In this document: piece after piece, positions 1,785-32,462 of the stretch
Layout of the letters: each line of letters starts with the position of its first letter
Numbering within the stretch: the stretch's first letter is position 1
Source: Gimibacter soli
GTDB lineage: Bacteria > Pseudomonadota > Alphaproteobacteria > Sphingomonadales > Kordiimonadaceae
Assembly (NCBI RefSeq): GCF_028463845.1
Contig: NZ_CP116805.1
Coordinates: 620,001-684,000 of the forward strand
DNA length: 64,000 bases
Direction: 5' to 3'
Notes under the pieces: model-generated
Database searches by the model: none
The model's input: only the letters and a program-made list of their open reading frames with translations
Told to the model about the DNA's origin: nothing
Program-made: the position numbers and the translations under genes

Positions 1785-3101
1785 TTACTCGGCGTCAGTC
1801 GGCTTCTTGCCTTCCGAAGGCTCAGGCGGGCGGATCCAGCAATCGGTGCCGTTGGCCTTCAGCGCGTTGCACAGCTCCCGCGCTTCGGCAAGGGACTTCA
1901 GCGGACCGGCATTCAGACGGTAATAGAAGCCCGACGGCTTGGTGTCGCGCGTGCCGAAATCCACTTCCGAGCGGCGCGGTTCGATGCCGTTCAGGATATC
2001 CTGGTTGGCGGCATGAAGGAGATCCCAGCCCCGGATCAGTTCCTTGACGGTGCGATAGGCGGCGATCTGCAGCGCCCAGCCTTCGGATTCGAGGAGCGGC
2101 GGGATATCGCCCTGCTGGTAAGGCTTCTTCTCGGCGACCGGTGTCGCAGGGGCGGCGGGGGCTGCTGGCATCATCTCGACCGTATCGGCCGAAGCCGGAT
2201 CGGTCACCAGCCGGTTTGCCGCCGCATCGCGGTCTTCGGTATCGGTGAGGCGCAGGTTGCCCGGGGTGGCGCCATCGGTTGCGGGCGAAATGGCCCCGAT
2301 GGCGAGCGAGCGCATGCGCTCCTCCGGTGTCAATGACTTGATGGCATTATAGAAGCCGAAAGTGTCGGCAACGGTGGCGGCATCGAGGTCGAGCCGGGCC
2401 ATCCGTTCCGCATCCTTGTCACGGCCGGCCATCAGGTAGGCGAAGGCCAGATTCTGGCGGTCACGCGGGCCGCCTTCGGCGTTCGATACGATGGGCTCAA
2501 GGATCGCGATCGCTTCGTCAGGCTGGTCCCACGCGGCCAGCACCAGCGCCTTGTTGGATTGGCCAAGCGTATCGCCGGCGCTATCGAAACTTTCGACCGC
2601 ATCATCCAGCCGTCCAAGGGCGGCGAGCGCAATGCCGCGGCCCGAACGGGGACGCCCGTCGCCGGACATCCGGTTGGAGGCTTCGGTGAAGGCGGCCAGC
2701 GCCTGATCAAACTGCCCGAGCGACAGGAAGGTCTTGCCCATGGCGTGCCAGGCATCGCCCGAGGCATTCTTGTCATCGATCAGCGAGCGCAGCACCTTCA
2801 TCGCTTCTTCGGGCGATCCGGTGGCATTCAGGCTGGCGGCAAGGCCGACCCGGGCGCGGTCGCCATCGCTGCCGCCAAGTAGCGAGCGATAAAGCGGGAT
2901 GGCGGCGGCATGATTGCCTTCCGCTGCCAGCCGGTCGGCGACATCGATAAGGCTGCCGGTGGCGCCGCTGCTTTGCATCGCGGCGGAAGCTGCCTGCACA
3001 TCGGGGGTGGCACCGGCCGAGGTAGAATGTCCGGCGCATGCGGCAAGGGTAACAAGACAAGCGCCCGTCGCCATCAGCCTGAAGGAAGAGTTTGTCGTCA
3101 T
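1785..3101 (-). CDS. TPR and SPOR domain lipoprotein
   Basis: The product is 438 aa. A lipoprotein signal (LVTLAAC, Cys at about 22) anchors it in the envelope. Residues about 60-270 form tetratricopeptide repeats (for example AWHAMGKTFLSLGQFDQALAAFTEA), a Flp-pilus TadD-like arrangement. A Pro/Ala linker follows, then a C-terminal SPOR domain (GWALQIAAYRTVKEL to about residue 425) that in this family binds denuded septal peptidoglycan. No Tad or Flp pilus genes lie nearby, so a role in cell-wall or division-site scaffolding is an inference from the SPOR domain only. It stands alone on its strand. Confidence 0.78.
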   Translation of the reverse strand: MTTNSSFRLMATGACLVTLAACAGHSTSAGATPDVQAASAAMQSSGATGSLIDVADRLAAEGNHAAAIPLYRSLLGGSDGDRARVGLAASLNATGSPEEAMKVLRSLIDDKNASGDAWHAMGKTFLSLGQFDQALAAFTEASNRMSGDGRPRSGRGIALAALGRLDDAVESFDSAGDTLGQSNKALVLAAWDQPDEAIAILEPIVSNAEGGPRDRQNLAFAYLMAGRDKDAERMARLDLDAATVADTFGFYNAIKSLTPEERMRSLAIGAISPATDGATPGNLRLTDTEDRDAAANRLVTDPASADTVEMMPAAPAAPATPVAEKKPYQQGDIPPLLESEGWALQIAAYRTVKELIRGWDLLHAANQDILNGIEPRRSEVDFGTRDTKPSGFYYRLNAGPLKSLAEARELCNALKANGTDCWIRPPEPSEGKKPTDAE

Positions 3102-3211
3102 GGTCGCTCACCTGCCTGCATTGGCGCTGCCCTTTGCGGGTCTGCCATGTTCCCGAATAGACCTAACACATTGGTCCATTAAGGTTAAGAAATATGGAAG
3201 GAAAAGACAGA

Positions 3212-3240
3212 ATGGCCGGCTCCTTTTCGGGAACGGCCAT
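3212..3240 (-). terminator. Hairpin downstream of the RHH/ParA pair
   Basis: Seven-base arms ATGGCCG and CGGCCAT enclose a loop that can itself pair (TTCC with GGA). It lies 18 bases after the stop of the RHH-like gene. The following minus-strand sequence is T-rich but not a clean T run, so it is a probable rather than certain terminator. Confidence 0.4.
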
Positions 3241-3257
3241 CCTGATCGGGTGGAGGA

Positions 3258-3653
3258 CTATTTCTTGACGGCACCGCAGAGGCAGCCGCCTTTGCCTTCT
3301 TCAGCGGCAAGCAGGGCTTCGACGGCCTCATGCATCAGCGATTGCTGGGTGACGCCGCGACCGGCGGCCAGAAGGCGCAGCTTGATGTGCGTTTCGCGGT
3401 CGACCCTCAGTGTCTTCGAGACGGGTTTCGCGGGTTCTGCCTTCACCAGCACCGGGCGCTTTTCAGCCACCGGTTCGGGCCGCGGGGCGGCACGCTCGGG
3501 CGTGCGTTCCAGCGTCAGGCGCACCGGGCTTGCACCCGTGCCGGCGGCGGGACGGGCTGTCTGCTGCGGGGTCGGCTCGAAATGGATGCCGGCAGACGGG
3601 CGTGCCTGCCCTTTGCGGGCGAGAAGCGAGGCTGTAAGGGATGCCATAGCCAT
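3258..3653 (-). CDS. Small ribbon-helix-helix-like protein, ParA partner
   Basis: The product is 131 aa. The first 75 residues are Ala/Pro-rich and probably disordered. The C-terminal part, SKTLRVDRETHIKLRLLAAGRG followed by VTQQSLMHEAVEALLAAEE, fits a short beta strand plus two helices, the pattern of ribbon-helix-helix DNA-binding proteins. It ends in an unusual GGCLCG tail with two cysteines. It starts 27 bases after the ParA gene stops, on the same strand, with AAAGGA 9 bases before the ATG. By analogy with ParA/ParG-type or VirC1-type pairs it could be the adaptor that links the ATPase to DNA; this is inference. Confidence 0.6.
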   Translation of the reverse strand: MAMASLTASLLARKGQARPSAGIHFEPTPQQTARPAAGTGASPVRLTLERTPERAAPRPEPVAEKRPVLVKAEPAKPVSKTLRVDRETHIKLRLLAAGRGVTQQSLMHEAVEALLAAEEGKGGCLCGAVKK

Positions 3654-3679
3654 CGGATTCAGTCCTTTCCCTTTTTATC

Positions 3680-4393
3680 TCAGCTCACTGCATGCAGCGG
3701 CGACCCGCCGAAAGCGGCACGGCCAAAGGTCGCGCGCGGCTGGTGCACGGTCTTGAAGCCGGCCTTCACAGGCAGGCGGCGGATACGTTCGTCGATGAAA
3801 GTCCAGAGCGCTGCGATCTCTTCCGTCGATTTGGACGAGGGGGAAGCTTCCATCACGGTGCGGCCGTCGATCATGCTGGCAGCAAAATCCTGCCGGTTAT
3901 GGATGACGGTCGGGGCCACTGCACCGTGCGCAGAAAGCGCGATGGCGGCTTCGGTCGTCAGGCGGGCCCGCGGCGTGGCGGCATTGATGACGAACACCAG
4001 AGGCTTGCCGGCGCGTTCAACCAGATCGACGGTGGCACCGGCGGCGCGCAGGTCATGCGGGCTCGGGCGTGTCGGGATGATCACGAGGTCCGACTTCGCA
4101 ACCACGGCCTGGATCGAGCGGGTGATGGCGGGCGGGGTATCGATGATCACGAGCTGGAAGTTTTCCTCACGCAGCGCGTTGAGGTCTGCCTCAAGGTCAT
4201 AAATGCTGGTTTGTGCAAAAGCGGGGTCTGCCGTCTCCCGCGCATTCCACCATGCAGCGAGGCTGCCCTGGGGATCGGTATCAATCAGCGCAACCTTGCC
4301 TGCCCCCTGCCGGACGGCTTCGACTGCGAGATGCCCCGACAAGGTCGTTTTGCCGGAGCCGCCTTTCTGCGATGACACTGCCACTACACGCAT
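3680..4393 (-). CDS. ParA/MinD-family ATPase (orphan)
   Basis: The product is 237 aa, the short ParA type without an N-terminal HTH. The deviant Walker A is SQKGGSGKTT (residues 7-16), Walker A' is VALIDTDPQGS, and the Walker B-like segment is LVIIDTPPA. Such ATPases form dynamic dimers on DNA and position plasmids, chromosomes, chemoreceptor arrays or other cargo. No parB, rep or mobilisation genes accompany it, only the small RHH-like gene downstream. It is therefore an orphan ParA with unknown cargo, not the chromosomal parAB pair. GGAGA sits 6 bases before the ATG at 4393. Confidence 0.88.
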   Translation of the reverse strand: MRVVAVSSQKGGSGKTTLSGHLAVEAVRQGAGKVALIDTDPQGSLAAWWNARETADPAFAQTSIYDLEADLNALREENFQLVIIDTPPAITRSIQAVVAKSDLVIIPTRPSPHDLRAAGATVDLVERAGKPLVFVINAATPRARLTTEAAIALSAHGAVAPTVIHNRQDFAASMIDGRTVMEASPSSKSTEEIAALWTFIDERIRRLPVKAGFKTVHQPRATFGRAAFGGSPLHAVS

Positions 4394-4549
4394 CTTAAGT
4401 CTCCAATTTGCCTGTGGGGAGCGTCTGCCAACGACTCCCGCATGAGGAAACGATACTAATTGCGTTTAAATATGGATTTAACAGATGCGGAAAATTTGGT
4501 GCGAATACTGACAAAATCGGCGGCGAGCGACCCAAGTATTTGTGGCAGC

Positions 4550-4585
4550 GGCAAAAAGAAGCCCCAGTGGTAGCACCACCGGGGC
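4550..4585 (-). terminator. Intrinsic terminator of the ferredoxin operon
   Basis: A stem of GCCCC-x-GTGGT with ACCAC-x-GGGGC (4561..4585, 3-base loop, one mismatch) is followed on the minus strand by CTTCTTTTTG. It sits about 45 bases after the ferredoxin stop codon. Confidence 0.7.
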
Positions 4586-4629
4586 CAGATCAGGGGAATT
4601 GCCGGCAGAGCCGGACGGTAGAATGATGG

Positions 4630-4950
4630 TCAATACTGGCTTTCGGGCGTGTGGACTCGCAGTCCCTCAAGCTCTGCCGAGACATTGATCTGGCAGGAAA
4701 GGCGGGAATTTTCGCGCCGGTAGTCGTTCATTTCCAGCATCGAAATTTCCATATCGCTCGGCGGTGTCAGCTTGCCGGCGAAGGCCTCGTCCACATAGAC
4801 ATGGCAGGTGGCGCAGGCACAGGCGCCGCCGCAATCGGCAAGGATGCCATCCACGCCGTTTTGCATGGCATTTTCCATCACCGAAACGCCATCCTTGGCA
4901 TCGACGATGCGTTCCTCGCCTTCCGGGTTCACGAAGATGATCTTGGTCAT
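4630..4950 (-). CDS. [2Fe-2S] ferredoxin, putidaredoxin/adrenodoxin type
   Basis: The product is 106 aa, the usual length for class I P450 ferredoxins. The cluster ligands are Cys40, Cys46, Cys49 and Cys86 (C-x5-C-x2-C-x36-C), with an extra Cys44 inside the loop (CGGACACATC). It carries single electrons from an NAD(P)H-dependent ferredoxin reductase to a P450 or other oxygenase. It overlaps the stop of the reductase gene by four bases (ATGA), so the two are translationally coupled. The only P450 in the window, at 10527, is the likely electron acceptor; this is inferred. Confidence 0.92.
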   Translation of the reverse strand: MTKIIFVNPEGEERIVDAKDGVSVMENAMQNGVDGILADCGGACACATCHVYVDEAFAGKLTPPSDMEISMLEMNDYRRENSRLSCQINVSAELEGLRVHTPESQY

Positions 4951-6215
4951 TGGGCACCTACAGTCTTGAGGGTTTTGAGGATCTCGGGGATCGGCCGGGC
5001 TTCATCGGCGACCATCGCGGCGGTCAGCGGCAGGCCGGCCTTGAGCACCTGCTTGCCGAGCATGAAGGCCTGTGCGTCGTTGATGGCATCAACCGCGATG
5101 AAGGCGTCGTCCCTGAAATAGAAGACGGCGAACTTGCCGCTTTCAGGGGTGCCACGCACCACGGTTGAGGTGTGGCCGGTGAAAAGCCCGGCGGTCTGGA
5201 TCTTGGTCGAATATTGATCGGACCAGAACCAGGGCGCGTCATAGGCCGGGCGCGGATTACCGGTAATATGGCAGGCGGCGATTTCCGCCATCTCGATCGC
5301 ATTCGGCACGCTTTCAAGCCGCAGTCGGCCTTCCTGCCCGGCGAGCGGCCGGAAGGCACAGTCACCGATGGCATAGATGGCGGGGTCTGACGTCAGGCAG
5401 TCCTCGTCGACGCTGATGCCGTTGGCGCAGGCGATGCCCGCATCCGCCGCCAGTTCCTGATTGGGCAGGACGCCGATACCGACCATCAGAAGATCGGTCA
5501 CGAAGGTTTCGCCGCCTTTCATGACGATGCCGCTGATATGGCCGTCGGCGGTTACAAAACGCTCGACCTCGGCATTCAGACGCACATCCACACCGTGGCT
5601 TTGGTGCAGCGACAGGAAATAGTCGGAAATCGCCTCGCCGGTGACGCGCGACAGAAGCCTTGGCATGCGTTCAAGCACGGTGACCGCAATGCCCGCTTCG
5701 GCCAGCACGGCTGCAGCCTCGAGCCCGATATAGCCGCCGCCCAGCAGGGTGACATGGCGCAGGTCGCCGACGCGGGCTTTCAGCGCCTTGGCGTCATCGA
5801 TGCCGCGCATCACCTGCACGCCGCGAATGCCGGTCAGTTCGTCCAGCAGGCGCGGGCGGGTGCCGGTGGCGATCACCAGCCGGTCATAGCCATGCATTTT
5901 GCCGTCAGATGTTGTTACCACCCTGGCCGCGCGGTCGATGGCGGCGGCGCGGGTGCGGGTGACGAGGGCGACCTTCTTGTCGGTGTAAAAGCTTTCGGGC
6001 TTCAGATACAGGCGCGGCTCTTCCATCTCGCCCTTCAGGAAGGCTTTCGACAGCGGCGGGCGCTGGTAGGGCGGATAGGCCTCTTCGCCGATCAGGGTGA
6101 TCGCGCCTTCAAAGCCTTTCATCCTCAGCGAATGTGCAAGCTGGATCGCCGCCTGTCCGGCGCCGATCAAAAGGATATTGTTGATGCCGGCTTCCACCAT
6201 GCCCACCTGTCCCAT
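4947..6215 (-). CDS. Ferredoxin reductase, FAD/NAD(P)-dependent
   Basis: The product is 422 aa, the size of putidaredoxin or rhodocoxin reductase. It has an N-terminal FAD-binding motif (LLIGAGQAAIQLAHSLR), a central NAD-binding motif (VTLLGGGYIGLEAAAVLAEAG spans about 145-165), an ATG motif (RLVIATGTRPR) and the second FAD motif with AIGDCAF. The C-terminal reductase domain begins at about residue 325. It passes electrons from NAD(P)H to the ferredoxin encoded directly downstream. The ATG at 6215 is used; a second in-frame ATG at 6200 is a possible alternative. Confidence 0.92.
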   Translation of the reverse strand: MGQVGMVEAGINNILLIGAGQAAIQLAHSLRMKGFEGAITLIGEEAYPPYQRPPLSKAFLKGEMEEPRLYLKPESFYTDKKVALVTRTRAAAIDRAARVVTTSDGKMHGYDRLVIATGTRPRLLDELTGIRGVQVMRGIDDAKALKARVGDLRHVTLLGGGYIGLEAAAVLAEAGIAVTVLERMPRLLSRVTGEAISDYFLSLHQSHGVDVRLNAEVERFVTADGHISGIVMKGGETFVTDLLMVGIGVLPNQELAADAGIACANGISVDEDCLTSDPAIYAIGDCAFRPLAGQEGRLRLESVPNAIEMAEIAACHITGNPRPAYDAPWFWSDQYSTKIQTAGLFTGHTSTVVRGTPESGKFAVFYFRDDAFIAVDAINDAQAFMLGKQVLKAGLPLTAAMVADEARPIPEILKTLKTVGAQ

Positions 6216-27447: not shown

Positions 27448-27698
27448 GGCGGGTGGGGCATCCTGCGCCCCATTCGTGACAGATTTCCTGATTATCTCTT
27501 CAAATAACATTGAGTTGCCTTCGGCGCGCACCTGTCCCACAGTGCGCGCGCCGGCATGAAGCACCTCCCCGCTCTTGCCGTGCGGACTGACGGCGCCCCG
27601 CCGTTTTCCCCGCATTCGCCTTCAGGCTGCCGTTCCTGCAACGGGTTCGGCGCATGCCTTTTTCACTGTTGCCCCATCCTGTGAAGGAGATTTCGAAA

Positions 27699-28349
27699 AT
27701 GACCGACCAGACCCCGACCTTCGAACTGCCGCCGCTCCCCTACGGCCACGCAGACCTCGCGCCCGCGCTTTCGGAAGAAACGCTGCAGGTTCACCACGGC
27801 AAACACCATGCCCGCTATGTGACGGTGCTGAACGGCTTCATCGCCGACAAGGGCCTGACCGCCACCTCGATCGAGCAGGTGACGAAAGACGCGCATGCCA
27901 AGGGCGACAAGCCGGTCTTCAATAACGCGGCACAGGCCTGGAACCATGCCTTCTTCTGGGAAAGCATGAGCCCCAAGGCAACCGCACCTGCCGGTGCGCT
28001 TCTTGATGCCATCAACGCGGCTTTCGGTAGCGTGGAAGAGCTGAAAAAGCGCTTCGTGGCTGAAGGCGTCGGCCATTTCGGCTCCGGTTGGGCGTGGCTC
28101 ATTGTGCGCGCTGGCAAGCTTGAGGTCGTCTCGACCCATGATGCCGGCCTGCCGATTCTGGAAGACGGTGTGACCGCCCTTCTGGCCTGCGACGTGTGGG
28201 AACATGCCTACTATATCGACTACCGCCAGGACCGCCCGACGTGGCTCGGCAACTGGTTCGACAAGCTCGCCAACTGGGATTTCGCGGCCCGGCAATTTGC
28301 CGCCGCAATCGAAGGCGGCGAAGGCTGGCGCTACCCCGCGCCGAAATAA
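27699..28349 (+). CDS. sodB: Superoxide dismutase, Fe type
   Basis: The product is 216 aa. Metal ligands are His32 (HHGKHHARY), His83 (WNHAFFW), Asp165 and His169 (DVWEHAYY). Gln79 in NNAAQAWNH is the residue that marks Fe- over Mn-type enzymes. It dismutates superoxide in the cytoplasm; there is no signal peptide. AAGGAG lies 9 bases before the ATG. The preceding 250 bases (27448..27698) contain no gene I can support. A strong terminator follows. Confidence 0.95.
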   Translation: MTDQTPTFELPPLPYGHADLAPALSEETLQVHHGKHHARYVTVLNGFIADKGLTATSIEQVTKDAHAKGDKPVFNNAAQAWNHAFFWESMSPKATAPAGALLDAINAAFGSVEELKKRFVAEGVGHFGSGWAWLIVRAGKLEVVSTHDAGLPILEDGVTALLACDVWEHAYYIDYRQDRPTWLGNWFDKLANWDFAARQFAAAIEGGEGWRYPAPK

Positions 28350-28372
28350 GCGACAAGACCTATCCGAGAAGA

Positions 28373-28401
28373 GGCCCGCCCAATCTGGCGGGCCTTTTTT
28401 C
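28373..28401 (+). terminator. Intrinsic terminator of sodB
   Basis: A 9-bp stem (AGGCCCGCC / GGCGGGCCT) with a 6-base loop is followed by TTTTTT. Confidence 0.92.
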
Positions 28402-28542
28402 TTGGGGATGCGCTGGCGGCGTCAATCTACTATTGATTGATATTTTCGGGCGCCAGCAGTAGATTCCCGGTTTCTTTACAGCCGACAGTTTCAGCGTGAC
28501 GACAAGTGTTCCGGTATTCCGCAATCCAAGGGAGGCCCCGGC

Positions 28543-30540
28543 ATGACCGCTCGCCCTCGTTCGTCAGTAGCCAGCAACAAGGAAATCAGCAGCCCGACGC
28601 TTACCGCGGCGGAAGACGTGCGCGTCCTGAGCGTACGCCCGGACACGCTTGATTTCCGGGACCGCATGTTCGAACCGACACTCGTTGAAGTGCCGCTTCG
28701 ACGAACCCTCGATGATTATTGCAGCGCCGGTGTGCCGATCCTTGATCAGGGCCGCGAAGGCGCCTGCACCGGCTTCGGGCTTGCCACGATGGTTCACTAT
28801 CTGCTGCGCACCCGCAAGGTTGAACGCTCCGAAGATATGGTCAGCCCCAACATGCTCTATGACATGGCCCGTCGGTACGATGAATGGGCCGGTGAAAACT
28901 ACAGCGGCTCCAGCTGCCGGGGCGCCATCAAGGGATGGTTCAAGCACGGCGTGTGCGACACCAAACTGTGGCCCAAGTCGCTTGGCGAAGCGGCGGTTGT
29001 GAACCATGCAATCGCCACCGATGCCTCGCGCCGGCCGCTCGGCGCCTATTTCAGGGTCAATCATCAGGATCTTGTGGCCATGCACTGCGCGATCACGGAA
29101 GCGGGCATCCTTTATGCCAGTGCCGCCGTGCATCAGGGCTGGCAACGGGTCGGCAAGGACGGGGTGATTGCCTATCCGGGCGGCAACATGATCGGCGGGC
29201 ACGCCTTCGCCATTGTTGCTTATGACGAAGAAGGGCTTTGGATCCAGAATTCATGGGGCACCAAATGGGGCAAGAAAGGCTTTGCCCGGATTTCCTATGA
29301 AGACTGGCTGGCGAACGGCAGCGATGTGTGGGCGGCCCGGCTTGCGGTGCCCACTCGGCGTGGTGCGGTCGATGCTGTCAGCAGCCTGGCGCACGGTGCG
29401 GCCCAGATTCCGGCGCTCGCCCTCAGCGAGTTGCGCCCGCATGTCATCAATGTCGGTAATGACGGCAAGCTTGACCCCAAAGGGGATATCGGCACAACGC
29501 CCGAAACGCTGGCCGAAATCGTGCGGGGTGACATCCCCCGTCTGACCAAGGGCTGGTCCAAGCGGCGTATTGTCCTTTATGCCCATGGCGGCCTTGTGGG
29601 CAAATCGAACGCCTTGCAGCGGGTCAATGATTACCGTGCCGCCATGCTCGGGGCCGAATGCTATCCGCTTGCCTTCATCTGGAAGACCGATTTCTGGACC
29701 ACGGTGCGCAATATCCTCGCGGATGCCAATCGTCAGCGGCGGCCCGAAGGCTTCATCGACGACAGCCGGAATTTCATGCTCGACCGGCTGGACGATCTCC
29801 TTGAGCCGGCCGCTCGCACGCTCGGCGGAAAAGCCGTCTGGAACGAAATGAAGGAGAATGCCGAGCTCGCGACCCTGCGCAAGCCGGGGGACGGCGCGGC
29901 GCGGCAACTTGCCGATCTCCTGGCTGCCGACAAGGATATCGAGCTGCATCTGGTGGCCCACAGCGCCGGCAGCATTTTCTTCGCCCGCTTCGTCGAATAC
30001 TGGACGAAGACGCTTGGCCTGCCCGTCGCCACCTGCACCCTGTGGGCGCCGGCCTGCACGACGGCGCTGTTCAAGAAACATTATCTGCCGGCGATAGACA
30101 GCGGGAAGATCGAACGCTTCACCCTTTTCACGCTGACCGACCAGACCGAGCAGAATGACAATTGCGCCAAGATCTATAACAAGTCGCTGCTCTATCTTGT
30201 CTCCAACGCCTTCGAGGAACGGTTCCGGATTCCGATTTTCCGGCCGGACGGCGAAGCGATCCTCGGCATGGAAAAATTTGTCGAGAAAGACAAGGCGATC
30301 AAGGCCCTGTTCAAGGGCAAGAAGGCCGTACACGAATGGATCCGCTCACCGGCCGGCTTGCCGGAAGGCGATCCTTATGCCTCGGAAGCCCAGCATCACG
30401 GCGATTTCGATGACGACCGCTTCACCGTGAAGGCGACGCTTGCGCGCATTCTGGCCGCCAAGAAAGGCTTCCACGGGACCGTCAGCTTCGCCCGCTCTGC
30501 CTCCTCCCGCCGCTCAATGCGCGAACGACTGAGCGACTGA
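28543..30540 (+). CDS. Papain-like cysteine protease fused to an alpha/beta-hydrolase
   Basis: The product is 665 aa. Residues about 50-270 are a C1-family protease with a complete active site: Gln69 (LDQG), nucleophile Cys75 (GACTGF), His220 (GGHAF) and Asn236 (QNSWGTKWG). From about residue 340 a second enzyme fold begins, with an oxyanion-type HGG (VLYAHGGLVG) and a nucleophile elbow with Ser474 (LVAHSAGS), as in lipase- or esterase-like hydrolases. No signal peptide, membrane helix or inhibitory propeptide is evident, so the protein is probably cytoplasmic or exported by a non-Sec route. It is not in an operon. The biological role is unknown. Confidence 0.85.
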   Translation: MTARPRSSVASNKEISSPTLTAAEDVRVLSVRPDTLDFRDRMFEPTLVEVPLRRTLDDYCSAGVPILDQGREGACTGFGLATMVHYLLRTRKVERSEDMVSPNMLYDMARRYDEWAGENYSGSSCRGAIKGWFKHGVCDTKLWPKSLGEAAVVNHAIATDASRRPLGAYFRVNHQDLVAMHCAITEAGILYASAAVHQGWQRVGKDGVIAYPGGNMIGGHAFAIVAYDEEGLWIQNSWGTKWGKKGFARISYEDWLANGSDVWAARLAVPTRRGAVDAVSSLAHGAAQIPALALSELRPHVINVGNDGKLDPKGDIGTTPETLAEIVRGDIPRLTKGWSKRRIVLYAHGGLVGKSNALQRVNDYRAAMLGAECYPLAFIWKTDFWTTVRNILADANRQRRPEGFIDDSRNFMLDRLDDLLEPAARTLGGKAVWNEMKENAELATLRKPGDGAARQLADLLAADKDIELHLVAHSAGSIFFARFVEYWTKTLGLPVATCTLWAPACTTALFKKHYLPAIDSGKIERFTLFTLTDQTEQNDNCAKIYNKSLLYLVSNAFEERFRIPIFRPDGEAILGMEKFVEKDKAIKALFKGKKAVHEWIRSPAGLPEGDPYASEAQHHGDFDDDRFTVKATLARILAAKKGFHGTVSFARSASSRRSMRERLSD

Positions 30541-30575
30541 GGGTATAGCCAGCGCGGGCCCCTCCAACTCGCCCT

Positions 30576-31949
30576 TCAGGCTGGCTTGCGCACCGCGATC
30601 AGGGCAGCAAGGGCAGCGAAGAGGGTTGCCACAAGGAAGGTCGTCTGCAGGCCGCCTGCCGCGAACACCGACCCGAGGACCGCGGCGCCTGTAATGAAGC
30701 CGAGGCTGCGGGAGAGATTGAGAAGGGCCGAGGTCATGCCGCGCTGGTCGGCGGCGGCCTCCTGCATGACCATCGTATTGTTGGCGGTGTGGAAGAAAGC
30801 ATAGCCGAGCGTGACGGCCATCAGCGGGCCGATATAGCCGGGGACCCCAAGCGACGCAGGCGCCGTGGCAAGGGCGAGGGCGCCAGCCGTCATCAGGGTC
30901 AGCCCCCCGATCTGGCTGCGGCGGACACCGAACCTGTCAGCTGCGCGCCCTGCCGGCACACCGGCAAGCGCGACCATCAGTGGCCCGGCAGACATCACGA
31001 GGCCAACCGACGCTGTATCGAGGCCAAGGCCGTGCGCCAGATAGAAGGGGCCGACCACAAGCGATGCCATCATGATGGCGGAGACGAGGCAATTCATCAC
31101 AAGGCCGGCGCTCAAAACCGGGTTCCGGAACAGGCCGGGGCGGATCAGCGGGTGTGCCGTCTTCCTCTCGAACCGGACAAAAACTAACCCGCCCGCGACC
31201 GCCGCACCCACAAGGCCAGCGTTCACGAGGGCGGAACCCCCGGCGCCGGTCATGGCCAGCGCATAGGCCGCAAGGACAGCGGCGAGGAGGAGGGTGCCGA
31301 CCGTATCGAATTGGCGAGGGTCGAACCGGGATGCAGGGGCTTCGGCGGGTACGCTGCGCGCGATCAGGGCGAGCGCGGCGACACCGAGGGGGAGATTGAC
31401 CAGAAAGATCGACGGCCAGCCGAAAGCTGAGACCATGAAACCGCCAAGCGTGGGGCCAAGCGTGGTGCCCGCCGCCGACATGGTCGCGAGGAGGCCCATC
31501 GCTGCGCCGGCGCGTTCCTTCGGCACCGCGGCCCCGACAAGCGCCATTGTCATGGCCATCATGACCGCCGCCCCGACCCCCTGCGCCACGCGCGCGGCAA
31601 GAAGCCAGTGGGTTGACGGCGCAGCGGCGCAAAGGGCCGACGCCAGCATGTAAAGAAGGATGCCGCCCATCAGCAGGCGGCGCCGGTCCATCATGTCGCC
31701 GAGCCGCCCAACCCCGGCCATGAAGGCGGTCATCGACAGGAGATAGGCGAGAACAATCCACTGGGCTGTATCAAAGGTGGCACCGAACGCTTCGGTCAGG
31801 GTCGGCAAGGCCACATTGACAATACCGGTGCCCACGGCCGCGATGAGCATCGAAAGGGAAAGGCTGACGAGTGCTAGCTTTGCGTTGCCTGAGGGGGCGG
31901 CAGGCATGGCATCGGGGCCTTCAAGGCCTATTGTTGCACTGTTGTTCAT
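30576..31949 (-). CDS. MFS drug-efflux transporter (EmrB/QacA type, DHA2)
   Basis: The product is 457 aa. It has the N-terminal substrate-efflux motifs of DHA2 exporters (ALPTLTEAFG, then GVGRLGDMMDRRRLLMGG as motif A, and a GPTLGGFM-type motif C), with 14 hydrophobic segments expected. The ATG at 31949 is used; a longer frame to 32129 would read through the shared operator. It is divergent from a MarR regulator with an 18-bp perfect inverted repeat between them, so it is very likely repressed by MarR and induced by a toxic compound. Confidence 0.87.
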   Translation of the reverse strand: MNNSATIGLEGPDAMPAAPSGNAKLALVSLSLSMLIAAVGTGIVNVALPTLTEAFGATFDTAQWIVLAYLLSMTAFMAGVGRLGDMMDRRRLLMGGILLYMLASALCAAAPSTHWLLAARVAQGVGAAVMMAMTMALVGAAVPKERAGAAMGLLATMSAAGTTLGPTLGGFMVSAFGWPSIFLVNLPLGVAALALIARSVPAEAPASRFDPRQFDTVGTLLLAAVLAAYALAMTGAGGSALVNAGLVGAAVAGGLVFVRFERKTAHPLIRPGLFRNPVLSAGLVMNCLVSAIMMASLVVGPFYLAHGLGLDTASVGLVMSAGPLMVALAGVPAGRAADRFGVRRSQIGGLTLMTAGALALATAPASLGVPGYIGPLMAVTLGYAFFHTANNTMVMQEAAADQRGMTSALLNLSRSLGFITGAAVLGSVFAAGGLQTTFLVATLFAALAALIAVRKPA

Positions 31950-31961
31950 GGAATTCACCAA

Positions 31962-32005
31962 TTCCTGTTGAATATATGCGTGCGCATGCATATATTCAAC
32001 AGGAA
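31962..32005. promoter_or_regulatory. 18-bp perfect inverted repeat, MarR/MFS operator
   Basis: The arms TTCCTGTTGAATATATGC (31962..31979) and GCATATATTCAACAGGAA (31988..32005) are separated by 8 bases, in the 72-base gap between the divergent MFS and MarR genes. The length and symmetry fit a MarR-dimer operator. Confidence 0.75.
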
Positions 32006-32021
32006 GCAGAGAGTCAAGTGG

Positions 32022-32462
32022 ATGAACGGAATGAATGGATATCTGGCCCTTTTTGATCGGCTCGGGCAGCTTGGGCGGCAGCGCTACCGCATGGCGGAAG
32101 ACTATTTTGCGCGGCTCGGGCTCAATCACACGGAAGCGCGTCTCCTGACGCTTCTGACCCAGGCGGGTGGCCGGGCGACGCAGGATGCCCTCGCAGGCCA
32201 GCTTTATATCGATCGCAGTAATGTGGGGCGGGCCCTAAAAGCGCTGGAGGCGCGCGACTATGTAGCGCGGCAGAAGGATGCGAAAGACAAGCGCGCCAAC
32301 TTTGTGCAGATCACCGCAAAAGGCAGCGCAGCGGCGGGTGAAATTGCCAGTCTGAAGGGTGAAATGGCGGCGGCCTTCTTCAACGGCCTCGAGGAATCAG
32401 AAGCGGCAATGATCGCCGGTCTCCTCGGTCGGGTGGAGCCATTTGGGGCCAATACGGCGTAA
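32022..32462 (+). CDS. MarR-family transcriptional regulator
   Basis: The product is 146 aa. The winged HTH of MarR type covers about residues 30-110 (LNHTEARLLTLLTQAGGRATQDALAG as the first helices, then DRSNVGRALKALEARDYVAR as recognition helix and KDKRANFVQITAKG as wing). The exact start is uncertain: ATG at 32022 or 32031; an ATG at 31968 would lie inside the operator. It probably controls the divergent efflux gene and itself. Confidence 0.88.
   Translation: MNGMNGYLALFDRLGQLGRQRYRMAEDYFARLGLNHTEARLLTLLTQAGGRATQDALAGQLYIDRSNVGRALKALEARDYVARQKDAKDKRANFVQITAKGSAAAGEIASLKGEMAAAFFNGLEESEAAMIAGLLGRVEPFGANTA

Follow-up and report, generated by a model that had tools for sequence, protein, structure and literature searches.

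The gene at positions 28543..30540 (+) of the window, a stretch of 64,000 nucleotides from Gimibacter soli, encodes a papain-like C1 peptidase fused in one chain to a lipase-like alpha/beta-hydrolase (ABH). Sequence comparison assigned it to a family that has this architecture, keeps its active sites, has spread horizontally and is repeatedly paired with further peptidases, a second lipase family and wall hydrolases. We propose that the C1-ABH family is a conflict effector, spread horizontally and probably intracellular, that would bring about envelope lysis or self-killing through joint action of the peptidase and the lipid hydrolase; the probability that we give this reading is about 0.42. 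The author of an earlier note on the same DNA knew of no named family with this architecture, and none turned up in Pfam, NCBIfam, PADLOC or the literature searched.

The gene is a stop-free ORF of 665 aa with an ATG start. A likely ribosome-binding site, GGGAGG (28530..28535, +), was read directly from the sequence 7 nt ahead of the ATG. Full-length homologues, found in other members of the phylum and on plasmids, were up to 56% identical to the window protein. Its N-terminal half is a papain-like C1A peptidase domain of xylellain type (residues ~34-270; 28642..29352, +). Pfam Peptidase_C1 (PF00112) matched residues 65-252 with an E of 2.6e-7, above the cut-off, and the closest PDB sequence match was xylellain (3ois, E 3.3e-10), to which the predicted fold of this half aligned with a Z of 18.7 and an rmsd of 3.3 over 201 residues. 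The oxyanion-hole residue Gln69 (28747..28749), the nucleophile Cys75 (28765..28767), the catalytic His220 (29200..29202) and the catalytic Asn236 (29248..29250), all on the + strand, were invariant in 35/35 aligned fusions; these are exactly the four residues that the earlier note had picked out. Active site, profile and modelled fold place the window protein in papain family C1A, xylellain type. By a simple hydropathy scan, the window protein and most relatives lack a signal peptide and any TM-like stretch. The claim that a signal peptide is absent is thus borne out, and an ordinary secreted protease was rejected on this ground. The accompanying claim that there is no propeptide is less sure, because a conserved N-terminal strip, RPDTLDFRDRMFEP, can be aligned to xylellain's N-terminal region.

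The peptidase domain is followed by an inter-domain linker (residues ~271-300; 29353..29442, +), which coincides with a low-confidence stretch of the model (268-297), and by the ABH domain (residues ~301-640; 29443..30462, +), delimited from the alignment, DUF900 matches in relatives and fold matches. The window protein itself had no ABH match in Pfam or NCBIfam (the latter gave no match of any kind), and in Pfam this is because it is too divergent. The Pfam profile DUF900 (PF05990), an alpha/beta hydrolase of unknown function, matched 7/27 full-length homologues with a best E of 1.6e-7 and did not match the window protein. Because the whole-protein AlphaFold model, built from a 7-row alignment, was poor overall (57.4), the ABH half was folded separately. 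The resulting model of 365 residues had a mean pLDDT of 61.7, with well-built core blocks at 80-94. Structural re-alignment against lipases, esterases and thioesterases gave Z of ~10-11.4 in the top rows, with TesA thioesterase, A. fulgidus lipase, LCAT, PlaB phospholipase and monoglyceride lipases as matches. Plain Foldseek with the same model returned nothing significant (best E 0.03), and the fold was therefore called from the re-alignment, from motif conservation and from the Pfam matches of the relatives. By these motifs and the core fold of a model of moderate confidence, the C-terminal half belongs to the alpha/beta-hydrolase superfamily, and not to a non-hydrolase fold.

Site conservation was read from the 35 aligned fusions, 30 of which form a main clade with an active-looking ABH. 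Within this clade, the HGG oxyanion motif His348-Gly349-Gly350 (29584..29592, +) was kept in 29-30/30 proteins, and the hydrolase nucleophile Ser474 (29962..29964, +) was Ser in 30/30, as expected from the earlier description of a complete hydrolase site; position 474 was Gly throughout the divergent subclades. The nucleophile elbow reads A-H-S-A-G in the window protein, whereas most relatives have G-H-S-A-G. His619 (30397..30399, +), invariant in 30/30 main-clade proteins and in 2/2 amidase-ABH-caspase proteins, is likely the catalytic His of the hydrolase, giving a plausible triad. Candidate acids for this triad are Asp533 or Glu536 (30139..30150, +), both invariant in the 30 main-clade proteins; Glu536 is also kept in the amidase-ABH-caspase proteins. 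A helical, low-confidence stretch between core strands (residues ~385-445; 29695..29877, +) may represent a lid or insertion of the hydrolase. The window protein also has a conserved C-terminal block, LxDxxExxD...YxKSLLYLV...HGxFD.

The whole fusion was kept in >40 relatives, which reside in genomes, on rhizobial megaplasmids and on one viral-collection contig. A chance or frameshift fusion was rejected in view of these >40 independent full-length homologues. The homologues overwhelmingly keep the fusion and do not carry the halves as separate ordinary genes; separate relatives of each half do occur, as stand-alone ABH genes and as stand-alone phage-encoded C1 domains. The full-length fusion was present in 11/385 genomes of the class (the window genome included), in ~12/398 genomes of the phylum and in none of 29 relatives from the same taxonomic family. 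It was found on rhizobial, Microvirga, Ideonella, Eleftheria and Palleronia replicons, with many copies on megaplasmids, and also in Campylobacterota and Bacteroidota MAGs. Judged from these sequences, the C1-ABH family is horizontally spread and patchy across phyla.

At the window locus, the gene lies in a segment (28350..30575) that is missing from a same-genus sibling, and this segment is a one-gene insertion between SOD (27654-28349) and MFS (30576-32129). In the sibling (L178), SOD (2985-3680) and MFS (3742-5295) are separated by 61 bp, and the flanks of the two genomes are 89-91% identical. The inserted gene came without an immunity gene, and the window locus holds no partner or defence gene. 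Its GC and GC3 match those of the flanks, and by composition it is thus not a very recent foreign arrival.

Among phages and viral contigs, one full fusion was found, on the viral-collection contig, ~5 kb from an integrase. ABH relatives were absent from 50,697 phage records, and one was found in viral contigs. The window gene was rejected as a phage gene because phages show stand-alone C1 relatives only and the phage records hold no ABH relative. Two stand-alone papain domains were located on viral contigs (L075 1139-1912 and L076 8000-8741), one of which is 245 kb long. Both share ~50% identity with the peptidase domain of the window protein, and the C1 tree places them within the clade of fused domains.

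Ten fusions kept the full papain site, but Gly replaced Ser474 and both HGG and His619 were lost. Trypsin is present in three of the ten. Each of the seven others (7/7) has a GDSL-caspase gene directly downstream on the same strand, with the GDSL motifs retained where aligned; in Palleronia, the fusion and its GDSL-caspase gene are joined across the origin of the record. GDSL was nearby in only 4/32 fusions whose ABH looks active (Fisher P 0.001, or 0.018 once related fusions were collapsed). The simplest reading of these sequences is that a lipid-ester hydrolase would be an essential part of the device, supplied by either the ABH or the GDSL family.

In several relatives, a third and exchangeable domain is joined to the chain. 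GH19 precedes the C1 domain in L063, PG_binding_1 and GH19 are present in L066, and a PF11860 muramidase is N-terminal to C1 in L067. The N-terminus of L045, with which its close relative L043 was grouped, gave a weak Phage_lysozyme match and is lysozyme-like. L033, L072 and L175 lack C1 and have the order Amidase_2-ABH-caspase. Where tested, these wall-hydrolase parts matched phage endolysin families. On the ABH tree, the wall-hydrolase fusions need 4 changes, of which at least 3 are forced by well-supported branches. As the wall-hydrolase families are unrelated, these independent captures were taken as a functional signal. Trypsin is N-terminal to C1 in L029, L036 and L197. Beside this trypsin-C1-ABH gene, and divergent from it, lies a signal-peptide-like ORF of ~2300 aa (L029 1-6984, L036 1-6803 and L197 1-2849, -). 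This ORF is constant in Paracoccus and Roseivivax and had no Pfam match in L029, where it was tested.

Similar activities are encoded next to the fusion. Upstream of C1-ABH, a wall-hydrolase gene carries Amidase_2 and PG_binding in R. etli, CHAP/NlpC in S. meliloti, and DUF2272 and SH3 in R. gallicum. C1-ABH is adjoined by a GDSL-lipase domain alone in L046 and L047 and by a GDSL-caspase fusion in L034, L038, L193-L196 and L199; the neighbouring GDSL is fused to caspase and Peptidase_M15 in L073 and to trypsin in L048. In one neighbour cluster, the part common to six members was the GDSL domain, with caspase in some only. Elsewhere, the same GDSL family occurs in plasmid genes annotated as amidase, as subtilase or DUF882 protein, or as trypsin. 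It was present in 7/385 genomes, 5/7 of which also hold C1-ABH (11/385; hypergeometric P 1.4e-7, or 3e-6 after thinning one same-genus pair), and the two were not adjacent in 2/5 of the co-holding genomes. A caspase gene follows the stand-alone ABH gene in 4/4 loci, one of which also has PLD and trypsin genes. Since ~67 caspase genes were counted in 23 family-holding genomes, chance alone would put a caspase next to the gene in well under one of ~20 loci. A background was computed for the GDSL co-occurrence and the caspase density only, the other neighbourhood counts are raw, and some of the plasmids in the neighbourhood sets are related. Only a minority of loci had a caspase, GDSL or wall-hydrolase partner. 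The earlier note mentions neither the exchangeable third domain nor the caspase and GDSL genes nor the insertion of a single gene, because these lie outside the window.

Further genes were observed in these neighbourhoods. A third gene of 535-659 aa lies after stand-alone ABH and caspase (L173 8677-10656, L174 9453-11183 and L176 3079-4686); it had no Pfam match in L174 and L176, and the similarity among the three was marginal. An animal-haem-peroxidase gene adjoins C1-ABH in L031 (6025-7908) and L048 (6194-8095) and lies near it, together with P450, in L030 (10777-13679) and L035 (11671-14588). DUF3616 genes were seen in a C1-ABH neighbourhood (L035 5026-6141) and in a GDSL-caspase neighbourhood (L192 9739-10704).

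One locus resembles a defence operon. In Campylobacteraceae (L002), a ComEC-like MBL protein, a caspase and C1-ABH are encoded in an operon with 10-bp gaps, and the best PDB matches of the MBL-fold protein were ComEC competence nucleases. No nuclease was found beside C1-ABH at the window locus or at any other locus read except L002. In the window genome, a subtilase (S8-like) gene overlaps an MBL gene (G000:C1 ~3280857-3283185; L204 6858-9186, -), and this MBL gene is 36% identical to the L002 protein. The genome of the window therefore holds a protease-nuclease pair of its own, far from the C1-ABH gene. In another genome (G436; L205 6337-8605), a gene recognised by eye as a patatin-like phospholipase overlaps a homologue of the L002 MBL gene, and this genome also carries a C1-ABH fusion. 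GDSL-amidase and GDSL-caspase modules were observed beside Lamassu-type LmuA, or beside LmuB and SIR2, on conjugative rhizobial plasmids (L187, L192).

The earlier note had considered an effector or toxin, a defence enzyme or a maturation factor. Of these, the comparative evidence points more towards an effector, of conflict or self-lysis, and nothing was found for a maturation factor. With no signal peptide, no T6SS in the window genome, no immunity gene and this set of hydrolases, an intracellular effector fits best. We envisage that the papain-type protease, switched on by a trigger, would process the hydrolase or set it free, or else that the protease would attack proteins in parallel with it. 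Acyl esters in membrane lipids would be the substrate of the ABH. In relatives, the cell wall would be digested simultaneously, either by a captured endolysin domain or by the product of a neighbouring gene, and caspase, trypsin or subtilase would replace or accompany the papain domain. The purpose of such a device, presumably cytosolic, could be host suicide against phage or plasmids. A cytosolic wall hydrolase would need a route across the membrane, which counts against the envelope-lysis reading. A more far-reaching version, which we put forward only tentatively, is a combinatorial immunity or self-lysis system, in which a lipid hydrolase (ABH or GDSL), a peptidase (papain, caspase, trypsin or subtilase) and a peptidoglycan hydrolase (at least 5 unrelated families) would be interchangeable and proteolysis would unleash destruction of the whole envelope.

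The lack of signal peptides would also suit an effector that is exported or injected, delivering peptidase, lipase and wall hydrolase into rivals by a contact-dependent or phage-tail-like route. Wall hydrolases, ABH lipases, and papain-like and caspase-like peptidases are known classes of polymorphic and T6SS toxins (PMC3482391), and one upstream neighbour in L001 has an Ntox23-type toxin domain. However, Hcp was absent from the window genome, where T6SS delivery was rejected for this reason, and present in only 6/22 genomes tested. Secretion or immunity genes, which the earlier note had suggested seeking beside homologues, did not recur (PAAR, VgrG, RHS or small immunity-like genes), and the window gene arrived alone. 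We consider delivery into rivals rather unlikely.

The family could instead be an enzyme for entry or exit of a phage or mobile element, endolysin-like or polyvalent-protein-like, that would breach envelopes on behalf of the element and that later settled in chromosomes. The captured endolysin domains, the nesting of viral stand-alone C1 domains inside the fused clade, the full fusion near an integrase, the many megaplasmid copies and the joining of lysozyme and peptidase domains in polyvalent proteins (PMC5512222) point in this direction. This reading is nevertheless improbable: ABH relatives are missing from the phage records and number one in viral contigs, most copies lie in bacterial genomes or plasmids without surrounding phage structural genes, and an entry enzyme would not be expected to have caspase and GDSL partners. 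We give similarly low odds to an intracellular enzyme without a role in conflict, for example in lipid remodelling or lipid-mediator synthesis, where fatty acids freed by the ABH would be oxidised by haem peroxidase or P450 under regulation by the peptidase. The likeness of the ABH to lipases and thioesterases and the haem-peroxidase genes adjoining C1-ABH, or near it with P450, are consistent with such a role, but the peroxidase is found in only 4/~40 loci and is missing from the window and most others, and the wall hydrolases, caspases and patchy spread would be left unexplained.

If the preferred reading of a conflict or self-lysis effector is true, the family would represent a modular bacterial device with which one transcript or chain destroys lipid, protein and wall, built through repeated capture of endolysins and proteases. 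Protease-activated effectors, a theme in which nucleases are set free by proteases, would then come to include lipases and wall hydrolases. Such a device would also account for many rhizobial-megaplasmid proteins whose sole annotation is 'C1 family peptidase', 'N-acetylmuramoyl-L-alanine amidase' or 'caspase family protein'.

The window protein had no match up to E 1 in PADLOC 2.0.0 (2023), and the family is in no defence library used. In the Canu antiphage pair, an MBL-fold nuclease is activated by a caspase (PMC12799240). The L002 operon resembles it in gene types, with a ComEC-like MBL protein and a caspase ahead of C1-ABH, whereas the paired effector here is a lipase-like enzyme and the window gene has no adjoining nuclease. 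Joint action of caspase and ABH pairs in conflict systems has been predicted (Kaur et al. 2020; PMC7159879). The MoxR-vWA (VMAP) systems of that study likewise pair a peptidase with an ABH of the same superfamily, a likeness at superfamily level; here, in contrast, the ABH usually shares its chain with a papain domain as the peptidase, and wall hydrolases are often present as well. The MoxR-vWA-VMAP core was not found among the flanking ORFs read at the window locus, where a single gene is inserted between SOD and MFS. Polyvalent proteins, which occur in phages and conjugative elements (PMC5512222), also combine several enzymatic domains per chain, including peptidase and lysozyme, but the proteins of the present family are smaller and mostly chromosomal or megaplasmid-borne, and the terms trypsin, caspase and hydrolase are absent from that paper. 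With DUF900 and lipase- or thioesterase-like ABHs, the family shares the HGG motif, the G-H-S-A-G elbow and the core fold, whereas the window protein falls below the DUF900 profile and has a conserved C-terminal block, and the partner set is conserved. Xylellain (3ois) is similar in sequence, fold and the four catalytic positions, and its N-terminal region aligns with the PDxxDxRD strip; short C1A peptidases of this type are also carried by phages (PMC10380794). Xylellain is a single-domain enzyme, whereas the peptidase of the family described here is fused to an ABH, often together with a third hydrolase.
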